From positions 1-24,221 of IMG/VR virus record IMGVR_UViG_3300048625_000097: 24,221 bases of DNA. One strand, given 5' to 3'. Source of the stretch: a virus. The notes beneath the pieces were generated by a model that was given only the letters and a program-made list of their open reading frames with translations, was not told the origin of the DNA and did not search any database. A program made the position numbers and the translations under genes. Below, piece after piece: positions 3,738 to 24,221 of the stretch (position 1 is the first letter of the stretch; every line of letters starts with the position of its first letter).

Positions 3738-5519
3738 ATGAATACAAATTCAAAACTTTTGATTCTTGAAAGAAGTGGTTCTACATTAGCATTCGCTCAA
3801 GATAATTCAGGTGCTTATGTTCTTGAAGGTGTGTTCGGTGAAATCGATAAGTTAAACAGAAACAATCGTATCTATACCGAAGACGAATATTTACCTCAAG
3901 TAGAAAGCCTTCAAGCTAAAATCAAATCATCTAAGTTATTAGGTGAATTAGATCACCCGCAAAACTTTGACATTTCTTTAAAAAATGTTTCTCACATCAT
4001 TGAAGAATTAAGATATGACAAAGACAAGAAACAAATTCTTGGAAAAATTAGATTATTAGACACTGATGCTGGTAAACAAGCTAAAGCATTAGTTGACGCT
4101 GGTGTACCTTTACACATTTCTTCTAGAGCAGCCGGTACAGTAGAATCTAATGGAAAAGTTAAAATCAAACAATTATTTACTTATGATTTAGTTGCAGATC
4201 CTGGATTTGCTAATGCTGAATTAAAAAGAGTTAATGAGGCTTTTGGTTTTGAAGATGATCAAGATCTTTTAATTTACGAAATCAACCCAACTGATAATAA
4301 ACAAACACAAATAAAAGAAGAACAAAACATGGAAAACGCAAGATTCGTTAGTACTGATGACTTCAATAGTTATTCAAAATACTTAGCTGAAGAAATCAAA
4401 GCTTTAAAAGAATCTCTTACAGCATTAAATAGCTCTGAGTCTACTAACGAGGAGATTAAAAATCTAAAAGAGTATTCTTCTTATATAGCTGAAAAATTAA
4501 ACCAAGCAATTGCTTATTCTGAGCATGTTGCAGAAAAAGCTGATCAAGGAATTCAATTCGCTGATTCATTGGCAGAAAAATTAGATCAATCAATTCAATA
4601 TTCTGAGCACATCGCAGAAGGTGTTGAAGCTATCAAAGGTTACACTAACTATTTGGCTGAGTCTTATAACGAAGGAGTTATGACACACGAAAATGTAGTT
4701 AAATACGTAAACTACTTAAAAGAAAACTTAGAGAAAGTTACTGAATACGCAGAATATGTTGCAGAAACTGTAAACTCTAACTTATTAATGGAAGATGATA
4801 CTGATGCAGGTGTACCAGCAGAAGATATTAAAGAAGAACCAAACGATAAAACTCCAGAGGTTATCGATGCAGATGGTGATAAATATCCAAAAGCAGAAGA
4901 TGCAGCAGAAGATATCGAAGATGAATTAGAAAAAGACATTGAAGATTCAAAAGCTGACGGTGAAGATACTGGTAAAGAAGTTACTGAAACTGAAGACAAA
5001 ATGGATGCTTACAAAAAAGAAATTGCTGAGAAATTAGCTTCTCTAGTTGAAAGCGCTAAAGCAAAATCAGTTGCTGAACCACATTTCTTTAAATTTATAG
5101 CAGAAGCTAAAAAAGAAGAATTCAATACTTTATCACTTGAAGAAAAAACAACAATTGCAAAAGCAATCGAAGGTAAAGGTTTCTTAACAGAATCACAAAT
5201 CTATACATTGTGGAATAATGCATTAGCACCAATTCAACAATCAGAACCTTTAGTAATTTCTGCAATGCCAGCTGAATATAAAGAAACATGGAATTCTTTA
5301 TCAGAAGGTAAGAAAAATCAATTGTTAGCTCAATCTAAATATCATAGATTAGAAACAGAATATCAAGTAAGAAATTTCTGGCAAACAAGAGACTTAAGAG
5401 AAGTTGCTCAAGTTATTGAAAAAGTAGAAATGGTTAAAGAAAATAAAGAAGAAGCAAAACAATTACCATACGATATGACTGGTGTTGCTGAATCTTTAAA
5501 TAAAAGATTTAAAAAATAA
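3738..5519 (+). CDS. 21: Prohead protease-scaffold fusion (gp21 + gp22-like)
   Basis: A 593-residue protein that appears to join two T4 functions. Residues 1 to about 166 are the gp21 maturation protease, a herpesvirus-assemblin-like serine peptidase. LLGELDHP holds His73, HISSRAAG holds Ser128/129, and DLVADPGFANAEL (150-162) matches the third conserved block. After a linker, residues 198-351 are helical with a 14-residue repeat whose units include (Y/H/S)(I/V/L)AE. Residues about 352-415 are very acidic. Residues about 415-593 are Lys/Glu-rich helix ending ESLNKRFKK, typical of a scaffold or core protein such as gp22. In T4, 21 and 22 are adjacent separate genes; no stop or frameshift separates the two parts here. 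An in-frame ATG at residue 198 (4329), after an A-rich stretch and just before the scaffold domain, could start a separate scaffold. Protease call is firm; scaffold call rests on position and composition. Confidence 0.85.
   Translation: MNTNSKLLILERSGSTLAFAQDNSGAYVLEGVFGEIDKLNRNNRIYTEDEYLPQVESLQAKIKSSKLLGELDHPQNFDISLKNVSHIIEELRYDKDKKQILGKIRLLDTDAGKQAKALVDAGVPLHISSRAAGTVESNGKVKIKQLFTYDLVADPGFANAELKRVNEAFGFEDDQDLLIYEINPTDNKQTQIKEEQNMENARFVSTDDFNSYSKYLAEEIKALKESLTALNSSESTNEEIKNLKEYSSYIAEKLNQAIAYSEHVAEKADQGIQFADSLAEKLDQSIQYSEHIAEGVEAIKGYTNYLAESYNEGVMTHENVVKYVNYLKENLEKVTEYAEYVAETVNSNLLMEDDTDAGVPAEDIKEEPNDKTPEVIDADGDKYPKAEDAAEDIEDELEKDIEDSKADGEDTGKEVTETEDKMDAYKKEIAEKLASLVESAKAKSVAEPHFFKFIAEAKKEEFNTLSLEEKTTIAKAIEGKGFLTESQIYTLWNNALAPIQQSEPLVISAMPAEYKETWNSLSEGKKNQLLAQSKYHRLETEYQVRNFWQTRDLREVAQVIEKVEMVKENKEEAKQLPYDMTGVAESLNKRFKK
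4329..5519 (+). CDS. Possible internal in-frame scaffold product (nested start)
   Basis: The ATG at 4329 (residue 198 of the fusion) starts MENARFVSTDDF. It follows AAAAGAAGAACAAAAC, an A-rich purine context like that before other starts in the window (for example AATAAA before 3284 and AAACAAA before 5682). It lies precisely at the boundary between the protease linker and the coiled-coil scaffold. Lambda makes its scaffold Nu3 from an internal start in protease gene C, so a precedent exists. A separate product would let scaffold outnumber protease, as T4 needs. This is inference: no experimental or comparative proof is visible. Confidence 0.35.
   Translation: MENARFVSTDDFNSYSKYLAEEIKALKESLTALNSSESTNEEIKNLKEYSSYIAEKLNQAIAYSEHVAEKADQGIQFADSLAEKLDQSIQYSEHIAEGVEAIKGYTNYLAESYNEGVMTHENVVKYVNYLKENLEKVTEYAEYVAETVNSNLLMEDDTDAGVPAEDIKEEPNDKTPEVIDADGDKYPKAEDAAEDIEDELEKDIEDSKADGEDTGKEVTETEDKMDAYKKEIAEKLASLVESAKAKSVAEPHFFKFIAEAKKEEFNTLSLEEKTTIAKAIEGKGFLTESQIYTLWNNALAPIQQSEPLVISAMPAEYKETWNSLSEGKKNQLLAQSKYHRLETEYQVRNFWQTRDLREVAQVIEKVEMVKENKEEAKQLPYDMTGVAESLNKRFKK
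4476..4790 (+). repeat. Tandem 14-residue coiled-coil repeat in scaffold domain
   Basis: Residues 247-351 of the fusion divide into seven 14-residue units plus one 7-residue half unit (317-323). Examples are SSYIAEKLNQAIAY, SEHVAEKADQGIQF and ADSLAEKLDQSIQY. Fourteen residues is two heptads, and the extra heptad keeps phase. Each unit has an (I/V/L)-X-Glu at the same position: Glu252, 266, 280, 294, 308, 329 and 343. DNA identity between units is only partial, so the repeat is kept at the protein level. Confidence 0.85.
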
Positions 5520-18439: not shown

Positions 18440-20698
18440 ATGGCACTTAGTCCTCAATTATTGAACTTTAAAAGTTCTGGTGTTTACAGACTTGAATTTG
18501 ACAAGTCTCAAACAACAACTAACAACGTTCAGACAATCAGATTAGTAGTTGGACATTCTAAAAAAGGTCCTTACAACACACCAGTTTTCGTAAAAACTGC
18601 TGAAGAATTTAATGCTATTTTCGGTTCAATTGACACGAATTTAGAAAAATTAGGTATGTTCTTCCATAGATCAGCATTAGCTACTTTGGGTAGAGGTCCA
18701 ATTTTAGCTTTAAATATCGCAGATATTAACGTAAACGATACTATTGCTTTCCAATCTCCAGTAACTAACGGTTCTGTTGATTCTATTTCAGCTTTGGATG
18801 GCGCTAATGAATTAGCTAGCTATTTTAATGTTGATAAATTCTGGTTCCCAGAAGATAAAGCAGTTTTAGATACAATTGGAAATCTTGACAATGATAGAGT
18901 TTTAAACTTTATCAATATTAAACAAGAACCTATCACAGTTATTGTAAGAAAAGCACAAGACGTTACATCTTTTGAAATTTCTGCAAGAGAATGGTACGGT
19001 GAAGGTAATGTTCCTGCATTCTTAAATGATTTTGATTTAGTTTCAGATTTCATGGTAGATGTATTTGTTTTCAAAGGTAAATTTAACCCAGCAGATATGG
19101 ACACAGATCCAATCTACGGTGCATTTTTTGATGCAAATGGTTTAATCAAAGGAAAATTAAATGAATTTTCTGCTTTAAGACAAGTTACATTATTAGCGCA
19201 ATATACTGGTTCATTAATTCCAAACTTTAAAGATTTAGAAGGAAGAAACTTATACATTGAAGCGGGTATTAACCAAGAAGCTAGAAGAACAGGTTTATTC
19301 TGTGCAGTTAACGAAGATTTAGTAACTGATGAGAATGGAACTAAAGTTGATTTAGTTGGTCATATCTATGATGAAACTTTAGACTATGAAGCATTGTCGT
19401 ATGTTATTGACAATTCAGTTAACCCTAAAGCTATTGCTTATGACGGCGATGTTTATGCAAACAATGCATCTACATTTACAATGACGTTCGCAGTTCCTGC
19501 TGAAGCAGATGCTTTCCCAATTAAAAAAGGCCATTATGTTGATGCATTAGCATCTAATAGATTAGCTAAAGTACAAAGAGTACAAAGATCAGGAAATGTA
19601 TGGACAGTAACTTGTAGTCAACCGGTTGCAGCTACATGGTCAGGATTCTATAACACTTCATTTGAAGAAGCTACAGTTTCTTACAAACCTTTAGTTTTAG
19701 AAAAAGCTACAATAGCATCTAAAACAATTTCTGGAGTTTTATCTCAATTAACAGGAACTGGTTTATTCGCAGCTTTAGTTGACAAAGATGTTATTGATTT
19801 TAGATATATTGTAGATACTTTCGCATCTTATGAAGATGGTTCTATTTTAAACAAAAAAGAATTATCGTTCTTAGCACACGAAAGACAAAATGCAGTAGCT
19901 ATTTTAAATGCTCCTACAGTTTCAGATTTCAAAAAATCAACTGATCCATCATTTAAAAATGATAACAATGAATTTAAAGTTGCTTACATCCAAGATGGTG
20001 GTAATTTAGATAAAAACCCAAGTTCATTATATGCTTTACCTTCTATCAATGATGGAGCTAATTACGCATTCTATTATGGACCAGGTTTATTAGTAAGAGA
20101 AAATGGTAAAGACACTATTGTTCCACCAGCAGCTTACGTATCTAATAACTTTATTGACAAATATTTCAACGCTTTACCTTGGTCAATCGTTGCAGGACCT
20201 AGAAGAGGTGTTGTATCAGGAGCTAATGTAGTAGGTGTAGAATACGCGTTTGACAAAGCTGACAGAGATATTTTAGAACCATTCGGTATTAACCCAATCG
20301 TCTTCCAAAGAGGTGCAGGATTAACTATCTTAGGTAATAAAACAGCTCAACAATCAGTTAAATCTGCATTATCTTCAGCTCACGTAAGAGAGGTATTAAT
20401 CTATATCCAAGACGGTATGGCTAACATCCTTAAAAACTACGTATTTGAATTTAATACAGCTCAAACAAGATTAGAAATCAAAACTTTAGCAGACGCATTT
20501 ATGCAATCTGTAAAAGCTGACACAGGTATTTACGATTTCCAAAATATTATGGATCAAACTAATAACACAGATGATGTTATCGACCACAATATGGGTATTA
20601 TTGATACTTTTGTTGAACCAGTTAAAGGTTTAGAAGTTGTTGTTCACAGAACTACAATCTTAAACACAGGAGAAATCAAAACTGGAAACTTTTCTTAA
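18440..20698 (+). CDS. 18: Contractile tail sheath protein (gp18)
   Basis: Main sheath subunit, which contracts on infection. It has 752 residues versus 659 in T4, the excess lying in the middle domains. The N-terminus (FKSSGVYRLEFD, then TIRLVVGHSKKGPYNTPVFVKTAEEF with a split at GHSKKGP) is the sheath pattern of an opening strand followed by 'G.s.~GP.n.P..v.s..~F...FG'. IFGSID and LGMFFHRSA complete it. The C-terminal core holds LPWSIVAGPRRGVV, DRDILEPFGINPI, GLTILGNKTA and HVREVLIYIQDGM, the conserved handshake and inner-core region of sheath proteins. The order 17-18-19 is as in T4. Own late-type promoter upstream; the next gene has one too. Confidence 0.93.
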   Translation: MALSPQLLNFKSSGVYRLEFDKSQTTTNNVQTIRLVVGHSKKGPYNTPVFVKTAEEFNAIFGSIDTNLEKLGMFFHRSALATLGRGPILALNIADINVNDTIAFQSPVTNGSVDSISALDGANELASYFNVDKFWFPEDKAVLDTIGNLDNDRVLNFINIKQEPITVIVRKAQDVTSFEISAREWYGEGNVPAFLNDFDLVSDFMVDVFVFKGKFNPADMDTDPIYGAFFDANGLIKGKLNEFSALRQVTLLAQYTGSLIPNFKDLEGRNLYIEAGINQEARRTGLFCAVNEDLVTDENGTKVDLVGHIYDETLDYEALSYVIDNSVNPKAIAYDGDVYANNASTFTMTFAVPAEADAFPIKKGHYVDALASNRLAKVQRVQRSGNVWTVTCSQPVAATWSGFYNTSFEEATVSYKPLVLEKATIASKTISGVLSQLTGTGLFAALVDKDVIDFRYIVDTFASYEDGSILNKKELSFLAHERQNAVAILNAPTVSDFKKSTDPSFKNDNNEFKVAYIQDGGNLDKNPSSLYALPSINDGANYAFYYGPGLLVRENGKDTIVPPAAYVSNNFIDKYFNALPWSIVAGPRRGVVSGANVVGVEYAFDKADRDILEPFGINPIVFQRGAGLTILGNKTAQQSVKSALSSAHVREVLIYIQDGMANILKNYVFEFNTAQTRLEIKTLADAFMQSVKADTGIYDFQNIMDQTNNTDDVIDHNMGIIDTFVEPVKGLEVVVHRTTILNTGEIKTGNFS

Positions 20699-20738: not shown

Positions 20739-21293
20739 ATGGCTTTACCACACTATTCGCAAGACCAGACTGCAAAGAAAGGTCAACAATATGAACCAGT
20801 ACAAAAGAATTTATTCGAAGTTACTGTATTGCCTCCGACTGGAGTAGCAGATGCTCCTTTATTAATTCAACACGTAAACACAATCTCAGGATTAGAATTA
20901 TACAAAGGAATTGAAGCGGTTGCACAAAAATTTAAGTTCTCTACAAGATCTTTCGCTGGTATGCCTAGTGAAACTTCAGTAGATGTAACTATTAATTTTT
21001 CATTAAACTTAAACAATGCTAACCAAGCATATTTGTATAAAACAATGAGACAATGGTATAACAAACAGTTTGATCCTCAAACTGGTGTTATGGGTCTTAA
21101 AAAAGATTACGTAGGTACTATTGTTATCGTTCAGTTCAATAGAGCTGGAGATATTTATAGAACAGTAACTTTAGAAGATTGTTTTATCACAAGTGCTCTA
21201 GGATTTACTGCTGAATTGTCATACGCTGAAGCAGAACCAGAATCTTTAGAAGTTATTTGGAGATGTGATACTTGGAAAGAAGTATTAGCATAA
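20739..21293 (+). CDS. 19: Tail tube protein (gp19)
   Basis: Inner tube subunit that stacks into hexameric rings inside the sheath. The 184 residues are slightly longer than T4 gp19 (163). It is a beta-rich protein typical of tube proteins: NLFEVTVLPP opening strand, HVNTISGLELYKG with the conserved loop, KFKFSTRSFAGMP, then VDVTINFSLNL. NQAYLYKTMRQWYNKQFDP helix follows, and RAGDIYRTVTLEDCFITSAL with a final LSYAEAEPESLEVIWRCD strand match the common 'itl.~~f~~s.~~~~ls~~~~~~~~i~vtf~~d' ending. It directly follows the sheath gene and is followed by a good terminator. Confidence 0.88.
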   Translation: MALPHYSQDQTAKKGQQYEPVQKNLFEVTVLPPTGVADAPLLIQHVNTISGLELYKGIEAVAQKFKFSTRSFAGMPSETSVDVTINFSLNLNNANQAYLYKTMRQWYNKQFDPQTGVMGLKKDYVGTIVIVQFNRAGDIYRTVTLEDCFITSALGFTAELSYAEAEPESLEVIWRCDTWKEVLA

Positions 21294-21373: not shown

Positions 21374-21598
21374 ATGTCTAAAGATAAATTAACTAAAAAA
21401 TTGCAAGTGCTTTTAAGCGAAGACGAAGTCTTTGTACTTAATCGCATTATATTAAATGACGCAATTGAACGAGAAGAAAGACCCATTTCTATTTCAGCTT
21501 TTATTAGAGAGCTAATTCGCCTTGAAATAGATAGTCGCTCAGATGAGAGTAAAATATGGGACAAAAATAAAATTAATAAACTTAAATCTAAAAAGTAA
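21374..21598 (+). CDS. Ribbon-helix-helix (Arc/MetJ-type) DNA-binding protein
   Basis: A 74-residue basic protein. KLTKKLQVLLSEDEVFVLNR (about 5-24) fits the N-terminal ribbon and first helix of the RHH fold, and SISAFIRELIRLEI (about 39-52) fits the second helix with the typical 'S.SaFIReLI' motif. The C-terminus is Lys-rich. Such proteins dimerise and bind short palindromic operators as repressors. It is co-translated with the following gp26-like gene (stop and start share an A in TAATG), and it has its own late-type promoter. A transcription regulator inside a tail/baseplate cluster is unusual; alternatively it may serve a non-regulatory structural role. Confidence 0.65.
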   Translation: MSKDKLTKKLQVLLSEDEVFVLNRIILNDAIEREERPISISAFIRELIRLEIDSRSDESKIWDKNKINKLKSKK

Positions 21599-22566
21599 TG
21601 CAAAACAACGAGAATGAAAACTTAGATCTAGATAAACAATATGAAAATGTTGTTAAACAAAGAGAAGAGTTACCACTTAGCGAAACTGTTATTGAAGAGC
21701 CTGTAAATCTAGGTAAAGTTCAAATGGACAGATTCGCCACACAAAAAGCAGAAGACGCTGATTTCCACTTAGGTTATCACCCGATTCCAGTTATTAATTT
21801 ACCTTCAGGTGGTATGTTTTACCCAGAAGGAACAGAAATTTCAATTCGTTCTGCAAAGGTTGCAGAAATTAGACACTTTTCAACTATTGACGAAACTAAT
21901 GTTTTAGACGTTGACGATAAATTAAATAATATCGTAGAGTCTTGTACAAGAGTTTTATCAGGAACTAAAAAAATGTCATACAAAGATCTTTGTGAAGAAG
22001 ACAGATTTTATGTAATTCTTTCTATCAGAGATTTAACATTTCCAGAACCTGAATCTAAATTAACAGTGGATCATTTAGATAAACACGGAGAAAAGCACAC
22101 TATTGAAATTAAAAAGGAATACTTTCAATACTTTAAAATTCCAGAAACATTAGACAAGTACTATGATATGGAATCTAAATCATTTTTAATTGAAACCAAA
22201 TCATTTGGTACAATTGAAATGAAACCACCAACTATCGGTGTTATGCAAAAAATGACAGCATATATCAGAGAGAGACAAAAAACAGGTGGTAAAATCGATC
22301 AATCTGTTCTACAAATAATGCCTTATTTAGTTGGAGAATGGAGAGGATTTACAGATAATGACATCTTCAGATTTGAAGTTGACATGAATGGATGGTCAAA
22401 CAAAAAATATAGTTTGATTTATAAATTAGCAGAACAAATGAAGACTGGAATTCAGCCAAACATGTTAGTGAAGATCGGGGACGACGAGGAGGTGGTCCCA
22501 ATCAGCTTTCGTGACGGAATCAAATCTCTTTTCATTGTTCAAGATTTCGCTGGAGAACTTCTTTAA
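21598..22566 (+). CDS. 26: gp26-like baseplate hub / tail assembly protein
   Basis: A 322-residue protein, probably in the T4 gp26 family (baseplate hub assembly; T4 gp26 is 208 residues). The conserved entry PVINLPSGGMFYPEGTEISIRSAKVAEIRHFSTI (in two parts, LPSGGMFYPEGTEI then VAEIRHFSTI, near 62-97) matches the family's 'LPSkG.~Yp.g..i.vr..t..Ee..l' pattern. A 60-residue acidic N-terminal extension precedes it. The middle has LNNIVESCTRVLSG and EDRFYVILSIRDLTF, also typical. It ends GELL before TAA at 22564. The last bases overlap the 22511 ORF in the +1 (equivalently -2) frame, and the 3' end contains a GC-rich patch with AGGAGGTG. Expression of the pair by frameshift, as in tail chaperones of other phages, is possible. 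Confidence 0.7.
   Translation: MQNNENENLDLDKQYENVVKQREELPLSETVIEEPVNLGKVQMDRFATQKAEDADFHLGYHPIPVINLPSGGMFYPEGTEISIRSAKVAEIRHFSTIDETNVLDVDDKLNNIVESCTRVLSGTKKMSYKDLCEEDRFYVILSIRDLTFPEPESKLTVDHLDKHGEKHTIEIKKEYFQYFKIPETLDKYYDMESKSFLIETKSFGTIEMKPPTIGVMQKMTAYIRERQKTGGKIDQSVLQIMPYLVGEWRGFTDNDIFRFEVDMNGWSNKKYSLIYKLAEQMKTGIQPNMLVKIGDDEEVVPISFRDGIKSLFIVQDFAGELL
22474..22517 (+). other. GC-rich, SD-bearing patch in gp26-like 3' end
   Basis: These 44 bases are 27 G/C (61%), in a genome that looks about one-third G/C. Codons GGG GAC GAC GAG GAG GTG GTC replace the usual GGT GAT GAT GAA GAA GTT GTT. They contain AGGAGGTG (22487-22494), a perfect match to the anti-Shine-Dalgarno core, and GGGAC (22478-22482) which can pair with GTCCC (22495-22499). 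Confidence 0.6.
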
Positions 22567-22786
22567 GACAAAGTTTTACGTATATTTACATTTACATATA
22601 CAACCATCTGAGCTTGAAAAAATGGAATTCTATGAATACCACTACTTACTCAGAGATCTAACAGATCATTTAAAGAAAGAACAAGAGGCAAACAAAGGTC
22701 AACAAGATTCAACATCAGAAATGATGAGCGGTATGAAAATACCAAATATTAAAATGCCAACAATGAGAACTCCGTCACTTAAGTGA
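22511..22786 (+). CDS. gp51-like hub/tail assembly protein, overlapping frame
   Basis: A frame overlapping the 3' end of the gp26-like gene by 56 bases, open from 22472 (stop at 22469-22471). The GTG at 22511 gives 91 residues. The region SLENFFKTKFYVYLHLHIQPSELEKMEFYEYHYLLRDL (pieces: LHIQPSELEKM and EFYEYHYLLRDL) follows the short hub/tail-chaperone pattern 'yh..~~..i..m.~~E~~~l~~~l'. T4 has 26 followed by 51. The end is a Met/Lys-rich tail. How it starts is unclear: the GTG is 16 bases after the AGGAGGTG, an ATG at 22622 is also in frame, and a +1 slip at CTT TAA (22561-22566) would fuse it to gp26. Its final codons lie in a terminator stem. Confidence 0.6.
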   Translation: MTESNLFSLFKISLENFFKTKFYVYLHLHIQPSELEKMEFYEYHYLLRDLTDHLKKEQEANKGQQDSTSEMMSGMKIPNIKMPTMRTPSLK

Positions 22787-22836: not shown

Positions 22837-24221
22837 ATGAAATTTAATCCCGTACAGGCGCTTCAGTCATTACTTTCACCGTTAGATAAATTAACCGCAG
22901 TTTCAGAAGCGGAATTGGTATTAACGCAAGATATTCATAAAGTTCTAACAGTAGATTTAAAATCGGCCGCTAATGATATGGCTTCTGAATTATCTACACA
23001 AACTTCAATATTAAAGGACATTAAATCTTTAATCAAAGATCAAATTAAAGAATCTAAAAATCGTAGTAACAATTCTGGCAGAGACGAAAGAGTAGAAAGC
23101 TCTGGAGGATTTAAACCAATGTCTATGAAAGACACTGGTTTGACTGCTGTAATGATTATAGGCGTTGCGGCTGCATTAGTTTCAGCTGCAGGTATATTTA
23201 TGTTTATGCCAGTTTTAAATCCAATGCAACTGTTGTCTGCGCTTGCCGTAGCAGCTACATTAGCTTTAGTGGCACCCGTTTTTATTAAAATCGCCGATGT
23301 TCTTGGTAAAAATCAAGGACTTATAAATGCAAGTTATGGCGGTTTCTCGGGCTCAAAACCAGATACTAGCAATATGTTCTCTATCATGGGAGCAACCTTA
23401 TTAACAATGGTTGGTATCTCAGTTGCTTTAGTTTTATCAGGTGCGGTATTATCGTTTATGCCTGTTATTGGCGCTGGACAATTCTTAACTGCATTAGCCA
23501 TAGGACTTATTATGATTCCATCAGCTTATGCATTTGTCTTATTTGCAAAAACAATCAAAGATAATAAATTAGGTGTTAAAGATATGGGCATGGTAGTACT
23601 TTCATTTCTTGGAGTAGCTGCCGGTATTGTTGGAACGGCTTTGATATTTCAAATGTTACCTGACAAATACAAAGCTCCAGATTTATTATGGTCGCTTCAA
23701 GTTGGTTTTGCAGTTGCTTTATTTTCAGTTTCATTCTTTTTAATTATGAAAGCTGTTCAAGGCGCTTCTCTTAAACAAATTATGTTTGGCTCATTAGCAA
23801 TTGGAGCTATAGCTCTGGGTATTGTTGGCTTGTCTTATGCATTTCAATATTTACCAGATGGTAAATATAAAGCTCCAGATATGACATGGTCTTTAGTTGC
23901 AGGTACAGCGGTTGCTTTATTTGCAGTTTCATTCTATTTTGTAATGAAAGCTGTTAAAGGAGCTAGTCCACAAGAATTACTTTATGGAGCTATTGCAATT
24001 CCATTAATTGCTATTGCCATCGCCGGTGTTGCTTGGGTATTTTCACAAGCTGCAGAATCATTAAGTGGATTAAAAGGACCAGATCCAATTGAAACCTTAA
24101 AAGCAGGTTTAGCCATACTTGTCTTTGCAATTCCATTTGCTTTATTAGCCATGGTATTTCAAAAGTTTGGAGTTGGTCCTAAAGAAGCTTTATTAGGTGT
24201 TTTAGGAACTGTTGCAACAGC
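22837..24221 (+). CDS. Putative tail tape measure protein, hydrophobic, internally repeated (runs off window)
   Basis: A frame open from ATG 22837 to the window end (461 codons, no stop), so it is partial at its 3' end. Residues 1 to about 80 are helical and polar, with MKFNPVQALQSLLSPLDKL and a Ser/Asn/Arg linker. From about 100 on it is almost all hydrophobic segments. The MP/LP motif begins units at about residues 122, 206, 272, 337 and a more divergent 403: FMPVLNPMQLLSALAVA, FMPVIGAGQFLTALAIG, QMLPDKYKAPDLLWSLQVG, QYLPDGKYKAPDMTWSLVAG. Each unit has two hydrophobic helices joined by a KAVxGAS or KTIKDNK-type loop. Immediately following two small assembly genes is the classic place for a tape measure, many of which carry membrane segments. 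It does not resemble T4 gp29 in sequence as far as I can tell. Alternatively it is an inner-membrane protein. Confidence 0.6.
   Translation, partial: MKFNPVQALQSLLSPLDKLTAVSEAELVLTQDIHKVLTVDLKSAANDMASELSTQTSILKDIKSLIKDQIKESKNRSNNSGRDERVESSGGFKPMSMKDTGLTAVMIIGVAAALVSAAGIFMFMPVLNPMQLLSALAVAATLALVAPVFIKIADVLGKNQGLINASYGGFSGSKPDTSNMFSIMGATLLTMVGISVALVLSGAVLSFMPVIGAGQFLTALAIGLIMIPSAYAFVLFAKTIKDNKLGVKDMGMVVLSFLGVAAGIVGTALIFQMLPDKYKAPDLLWSLQVGFAVALFSVSFFLIMKAVQGASLKQIMFGSLAIGAIALGIVGLSYAFQYLPDGKYKAPDMTWSLVAGTAVALFAVSFYFVMKAVKGASPQELLYGAIAIPLIAIAIAGVAWVFSQAAESLSGLKGPDPIETLKAGLAILVFAIPFALLAMVFQKFGVGPKEALLGVLGTVAT
23200..24221 (+). repeat. Tandem ~66-residue two-helix protein repeats
   Basis: Units start at residues 122 (84 residues, with an inserted Gly/Ser-rich linker), 206 (66), 272 (65), 337 (66) and 403 (divergent, continuing past the window). 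The third and fourth share KYKAPD plus W-SL and MKAV-GAS. Protein-level repeats with diverged DNA. Confidence 0.7.

Follow-up and report, generated by a model that had tools for sequence, protein, structure and literature searches.

Two overlapping open reading frames, resembling gp26 and gp51, in a stretch of viral DNA of 24,221 nucleotides (the window; all features on the + strand) very probably encode one tail assembly chaperone (TAC) made in two forms by a programmed frame change at or near TCT_CTT_TTC_A, a reading that rests on sequence comparison. Most ribosomes would translate the gp26-like frame to the TAA at 22564 and yield the short form, while a minority would change frame by net +1 or -2 at this site (22525-22534), or no more than two codons away from it, and read a further 84 codons up to the stop at 22784. 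The resulting long form, gp26(1-311/312) joined to a gp51 extension, would correspond to gpGT in lambda and to gp51 in T4. The frame is presumably changed by the ribosomes rather than by an altered RNA, and the short form would coat the tape measure protein and the long form recruit tube subunits. Comparisons among relatives show how the two frames are related, that the homology spans the fusion, where one frame gives way to the other and that an upstream AGGAGG is under selection. A programmed frameshift between gp26-like and gp51-like TAC frames had been proposed earlier from the letters of the window (the sequence-only reading), and this proposal is supported by a second frame that is +1/-2 in all relatives read and encodes a conserved +1 peptide; the reading had also located the frames, the overlap from 22472, the end of the first frame and AGGAGGTG (22487-22494) correctly.

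Gene layout, relatives and family

The gp26-like short form (TAC-N; 21598..22566) has 322 aa, of which residues 1-312 are common with the frameshift product, and its frame ends in GGAGAACTTCTTTAAG, the TAA occupying 22564-22566. Shifted by +1 (equivalently -2) with respect to gp26, the second frame stays open between 22472 and its own TAA (22784-22786), and within it we delimit a gp51-like C-terminal extension at 22532..22786 (84 aa, beginning SLFKISLENFFKTKFYVYLHLHIQPSELEKMEFYEYHYLL). The fused product would have approximately 395 aa if the slip is +1 and 396 aa if it is -2. In the dual-coded overlap (22532..22566) the zero-frame tail reads IVQDFAGELL* and the +1 frame reads SLFKISLENFFK. Upstream of the pair lie genes for a tail sheath (18440..20698; phrog_34521, E=1.5e-125; PF17482) and a tail tube (20739..21293; phrog_4542, E=2e-7), and downstream lies the N-terminal part of a long hydrophobic-repeat ORF (22837..24221) that runs off the window and has 864 aa in the near relative L272. 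By position and make-up this ORF encodes a probable tape measure protein; a family search with it returned no tape-measure (or other) family match. The order of sheath, tube, TAC and long hydrophobic ORF is the one that should be expected for a TAC.

A scan of IMG/VR yielded 80 near loci, of which 78 include a stop; each of these has an open +1 frame from 59-122 nt 5' of the stop, and nearly everywhere it runs on approximately 72 codons past the gp26 stop where the contig allows. Distant phages were taken from tblastn and inspected singly, giving 11 records from the uncultured huge phages LR756500, LR745206, LR756501 and LR756504, Sphingomonas phage PAU, Flavobacterium phage MaF61, Chryseobacterium phage MA9V-1, Tenacibaculum phages PTm1 and pT24, and Prevotella Lak phages. 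A further 57 unique loci came from additional scans, which gave members of the LR745206 and LR756500 clades and one MaF61 relative. The downstream frame is +1/-2 in every relative (78 near loci, 57 further loci and 11 distant records), unlike the net -1 of the tandem heptamer class (X_XXY_YYZ). Named hosts of phages with this form are mostly Bacteroidota, and no relatives were found in cellular genome contigs. In LR745206 a second gp26-like gene (L189; 262761-263216; 256 aa) has no extension and lies at a great distance from the tail genes, next to two methyltransferase-like genes. In LR756501 (L089; gp26 stop at 3823) the overlap holds approximately 69 extra nucleotides with VFS repeated, and the +1 frame is open throughout.

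The extension in the +1 frame matches phrog_634, the baseplate hub assembly catalyst (T4 gp51 family), with E=1e-4; searching with the gp26 part and the extension together did not raise the phrog_634 score. Compared with the T4 baseplate family (PF12322 and phrog_150), the gp26 part alone had no Pfam match, and its best PHROG was phrog_36717, function unknown. An AlphaFold2 model of gp26 alone (pLDDT 80) was confident to about residue 310 and low past the shift point. Compared with BFVD, the predicted fold resembled a baseplate hub subunit of Bacillus phage SP-15 (E=5e-9) and T4-like baseplate hub assembly proteins (E=4e-7 and 1e-6); Foldseek against the PDB gave nothing significant, with the HK97 TAC (2OB9) at E=4.5 only. 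Going by the predicted fold and the phrog_634 extension, the gp26 part is of the same family as T4 gp26/gp51. T4 gp26 and gp51 themselves match PF12322 at 8.8e-64 and 3.9e-52, respectively, and both also match phrog_150, while the phrog_634 part is found in gp51 only (residues 147-246); judged by these matches, T4 gp51 consists of a paralogue of gp26 to which the phrog_634 extension is joined without a change of frame. The fused profile of the window's group and a cyanophage fused profile gave one alignment (columns 67-374, E=1e-11) that runs across both junctions. A direct hhalign comparison with the single T4 gp51 sequence gave no significant result.

Position and mode of the proposed frame change

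In nearly all lineages, with the exception of Lak, a conserved +1 peptide, FSL(F/I)(Q/K/R/M)...L..(F/L/Y), begins approximately 10-14 codons 5' of the stop. In the distant phages the zero-frame tail past (I/L)F is variable, while the +1 frame of those same bases is conserved. Third bases of the zero frame vary up to AAR and are almost invariant from TCT CTT TTC on (third-base entropy near 0; 51 sequences), and a like freeze sets in at the homologous TCA GGT ATT TTC in a second clade (52 sequences; a clade only ~24-29% identical). Residue conservation in the overlap was ~1.00 in the +1 frame and 0.71-1.00 in the zero frame, where it dropped to 0.71-0.86 in places. Quantification over 10 overlap codons in 15 lineages gave a mean BLOSUM62 score per site of 0.72 for the zero frame and 1.69 for the +1 frame; in the eight most divergent lineages the scores were 0.08 and 0.75, respectively (shuffled: -0.5 to -0.7). 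The phrog_634 alignment of the +1 frame starts at frame residue 20, which is nt 22529. Since the +1 frame is conserved from ~22525-22534, it would be translated from there, and we place the shift there, at the proposed site TCT_CTT_TTC_A (22525..22534), where the onset of the third-base freeze, the start of the phrog_634 alignment and the homology to the -1 site T_TTT_TTC of cyanophages come together. On these comparisons the shift site is approximately 35 bases 5' of the stop codon at which the sequence-only reading had put it. Between the upstream hairpin described below and the shift site (22505-22527) the third bases of TTT, GAC and ATC are also nearly invariant, as are those of TTT CCC AAC GGA in the second clade. 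RNAalifold gave no convincing conserved stimulator structure downstream.

Two slips at TCT_CTT_TTC_A are about equally good candidates. In a +1 slip the peptidyl-tRNA-Leu would move from CTT to TTT, and in a tandem -2 slip the tRNAs would move from CTT to CTC and from TTC to TTT; in both cases the next codon would be TCA. Both modes re-pair well in the window clade, and the -2 tandem slip of the Mu/arterivirus type (NTT_TTY) would fit this clade and most lineages. Where lineages have ATT_TTC, a -2 slip gives perfect re-pairing of the A-site codon only, not of the P-site codon. Re-pairing is poor in either mode at TTG_TTC (L070), CTA_TTC (L073), TTA_TTC (L099), ATT_GTC (pT24) and ATA_TTC (Lak), where the NTT_TTY pattern fails as well; since neither slip fits these lineages, the re-pairing rule appears incomplete. 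Two other movements were considered and rejected. A slip on AAA_A could occur in L099, LR756504 and pT24 but does not hold generally, because in the window clade a T comes after the AAA or AAG. A tRNA-Phe hop between TTC 22531 and TTC 22538 would suit several lineages, yet PAU, PTm1 and pT24 do not fit it, and the conserved S-L would be left out of the product.

The AGGAGG element, internal starts and the stop codon

Upstream of the shift site, in a GC-rich patch, is a small hairpin GGGAC[GACGAGGAGGTG]GTCCC (22478..22499; 5' arm 22478-22482, 3' arm 22495-22499), whose loop holds a Shine-Dalgarno (SD)-like AGGAGG (22487..22492), 35 nt 5' of the shift-site CTT. AGGAGG occurs once in the window. 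Across 105 unique loci from two distant clades we counted 105 copies of GGAGG within a 40-nt element, compared to 1 per 1780 bp elsewhere; some loci carry two copies, and in a few GAGGAGA or GAGGAGC replaces it. Glu codons in the element are GAG rather than GAA by 247 to 31 (544 to 2237 in the rest of gp26), and the neighbouring Gly codon is GGG in 47/47 sequences that have Gly there, although GGG makes up 0.3% of Gly codons in the window ORFs. The distance from the purine run to the shift codon, counted on the sequences, is 35-41 nt across lineages. Most lineages have AGGAGG or nearly so, while LR756504 and PTm1 are without a purine run. Selection on AGGAGG is thus well supported at the level of sequence. 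The sequence-only reading had named synonymous sites as a check on both AGGAGG and the CTT TAA at the end of gp26; AGGAGG passed as a site under selection, whereas the invariance of CTT TAA in 78/78 loci is forced by dual coding.

The stem around this element differs by lineage: GGGAC/GTCCC in the window, GTGTGG/CCACAC in LR745206 relatives, ACTGTGAC/GTCGCAGT in L102 and CTTCC/GGAAG in MaF61, with short hairpin stems also in PAU, L082 and pT24. The window-clade stem is 100% paired in 21 distinct haplotypes, without covariation. In the hairpin of the LR745206 clade (97.4% paired) one pair is UA in 17, CG in 5 and UG in 2, a compensatory pattern whose covariation score was reached in 0/500 shuffles. 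When flanks were shuffled around single hairpins, p ranged from ~0 to 0.9, mostly ~0.01-0.7; as this significance is modest, the claim of a hairpin rests on its repeated occurrence and on the one covarying pair, and is moderately supported.

From its position and the known use of SD stimulators we infer that the AGGAGG hairpin acts as a frameshift stimulator, for example by anti-SD pairing with the shifting or a trailing ribosome. In yeast, +1 shifting is reported to be stimulated by a hairpin on the 5' side (PMC6321510). Tentatively, and with some doubt on our part, this may be a new type of stimulator, an SD in a hairpin loop at a roughly fixed distance of 35-41 nt upstream, adapted to ribosomes that normally hide the anti-SD, perhaps retuned in a Chryseobacterium phage, and acting over about one ribosome length, for instance via a trailing ribosome. 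The phage in question, MA9V-1 (L087), has the loop AGCGAGACAG instead of GGAGG approximately 40-50 nt 5' of the shift site, with GAGA in the loop of a TGGT/ACCA hairpin. The anti-SD of its host family is UCUCA (PMC8710568); given this altered anti-SD, GAGA could be a matching SD, in this one lineage only.

Also possible, though we would not favour it, is a real frameshift to which the AGGAGG hairpin is unrelated, its bases being kept by the protein (a treble-clef C..CG.E motif) or serving to slow ribosomes for folding. The element sits where many relatives encode CxxCGxE, so that its spacing would be fixed by the protein, and single hairpins are weak by the flank-shuffle test. However, the window clade has lost the cysteines yet keeps GGG GAC .. 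GAG GAG, even though GAG accounts for 13% of Glu codons in the window and GGG is as rare as given above; in MaF61 the purine run falls in other codons (CAA GGA GGG) and the Glu codons there are GAA. The compensatory pairs in the LR745206 clade likewise speak against a role confined to the protein.

If, instead, the ORFs were two separate genes, the second protein would start in the +1 frame at GTG 22511, TTG 22535 or ATG 22622, possibly with AGGAGG as its SD, which we consider very improbable. In its favour, GTG-53 or TTG-29 or both are present in the +1 frame of all window-clade sequences, and PAU has an ATG in this frame 6 nt after GGGAGG. Yet no start position is shared across the window clade, GTG-53 being GCG in many sequences and TTG-29 being TTA in others, and the GTG and TTG candidates, at 18 nt or more, are off SD spacing. 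From -65 to +75 the +1 frame of LR756501 contains neither ATG nor GTG nor TTG, and in L082 and L099 the +1 ORF has no start codon before +28. Moreover, T4 gp51 and the cyanophage -1 site described below indicate that the functional unit elsewhere is the fusion. An internal start for a second gene was thus rejected in general. The sequence-only reading had called the start of the second protein weak and had suggested comparing the overlap in relatives. In the window GTG 22511 and TTG 22535 are the only start codons in the overlap, with the first ATG at 22622, and some relatives are without any start codon in the second frame.

The specific mechanism that reading had favoured was a prfB-like +1 slip at the stop codon, within CTT CTT TAA (22558..22566), in which CTT_TAA_G would become CTT_T_AAG and gp26 through GELL would continue as KTKFY (peptide SLFIVQDFAGELLK); we now regard it as very improbable. 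In its favour, 78/78 window-clade loci have the motif unchanged, re-pairing from CTT to TTT is known from prfB, and the prfB +1 site is present in 72% of Bacteroidia genomes surveyed (PMC8710568). L070, L073 and L099 keep CTT CTT TAA despite poor re-pairing at the CTT_TTC position, and Lak phages have TTT_TAA_T. As in prfB, the window clade has a CTT next to the stop, together with an SD-like element in a phylum that rarely uses SD for initiation. However, the +1 frame 5' of the stop is conserved as protein and aligns to gp51/phrog_634, so that it must be translated, its coding beginning approximately 10 codons before the stop. CTT TAA is absent in the LR745206, PAU, MaF61, PTm1, pT24 and LR756504 lineages, where the stop contexts include GAA TAA (LR745206 clade), TCT TAA (PAU) and GAG TAA (MaF61). 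Nor is a GGAG just 5' of the CTT kept (CAGAA, CAAGAA), and AGGAGG, 35-41 nt from the actual site, does not have the spacing of prfB, whose SD lies 3 nt from a slip at the stop. Because Leu-Leu-stop and Asn-Phe-Phe-Lys read from the same bases permit no other sequence, we judge the invariant CTT CTT TAA to be a by-product of dual coding. Lak phages (L083/L084; gp26 stop at 3817) stand apart: they have GAT_TTT_TAA_T, a perfect +1 slip site, and their +1 frame is without the usual overlap motif, a displaced extension motif, ELFKIPYDDLMHIVYVLSKEMNLSFSDVKDM, lying some 30-40 residues further on. Prevotella Lak phages may, by these features, use a stop-codon slip.

Two-form chaperones elsewhere and what the finding would mean

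Lambda (gpG/gpGT), Mu and HSTV-2, among others, make short and long chaperones by frameshifting immediately upstream of the tape measure gene, and the window would do likewise 5' of its probable tape measure gene. The slip sequence of the window differs from the TAC sites of these phages, and the likeness drawn here is one of arrangement. Recorded TAC shifts comprise -1, -2 (Mu) and +1 (HSTV-2), with no shift in T4 (PMC5009743). According to Vladimirov, Gautam and Davidson (2022, Virology 566:9-15), as cited in PMC12846349 and PMC10885494, gp26 and gp51 are the T4-like TACs, with T4 using two genes. In T4, genes 26 and 51 are separate, divergent neighbours, whereas the window has one gene and a frame change; common to both is a short form plus a long form that carries the same extension. 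T4-like TACs have accordingly been known since 2022, and in the open-access literature searched we found no report of a +1/-2 version in this phage group or of the upstream element.

In cyanophages and the pelagiphage Mosig the extension comes after gp26 in the -1 frame, entered at T_TTT_TTC. When cyanophage-type loci were scanned, 68/68 unique sequences had T_TTT_TTC together with an open -1 frame; in 29/68 an SD-like run lies 9-10 nt 5' of this site. This fusion is homologous to the window's and has its junction at the same place (GLQSFF against GIKSLF), but the shift is a canonical -1, in contrast to the net +1/-2 of the window with its SD-like run in a hairpin loop 35-41 nt upstream. The cyanophage 'gp51' (L094-L097, L190-L269) is annotated as a small separate gene or omitted, though it is the -1 extension of gp26.

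One chaperone family would thus have solved the problem of making two products in three ways: by a -1 shift in cyanophages, by a +1/-2 shift in phages with mostly Bacteroidota among their named hosts, and by gene duplication in T4. With three solutions in one family, the origin of T4's two genes becomes testable. Many large phages have a small gene annotated as 'gp51' or as hypothetical, and the finding would also correct this. Finally, the AGGAGG hairpin, retained in phages of a phylum where SD is little used, may offer an entry to the question of whether anti-SD pairing influences the reading frame from a distance.
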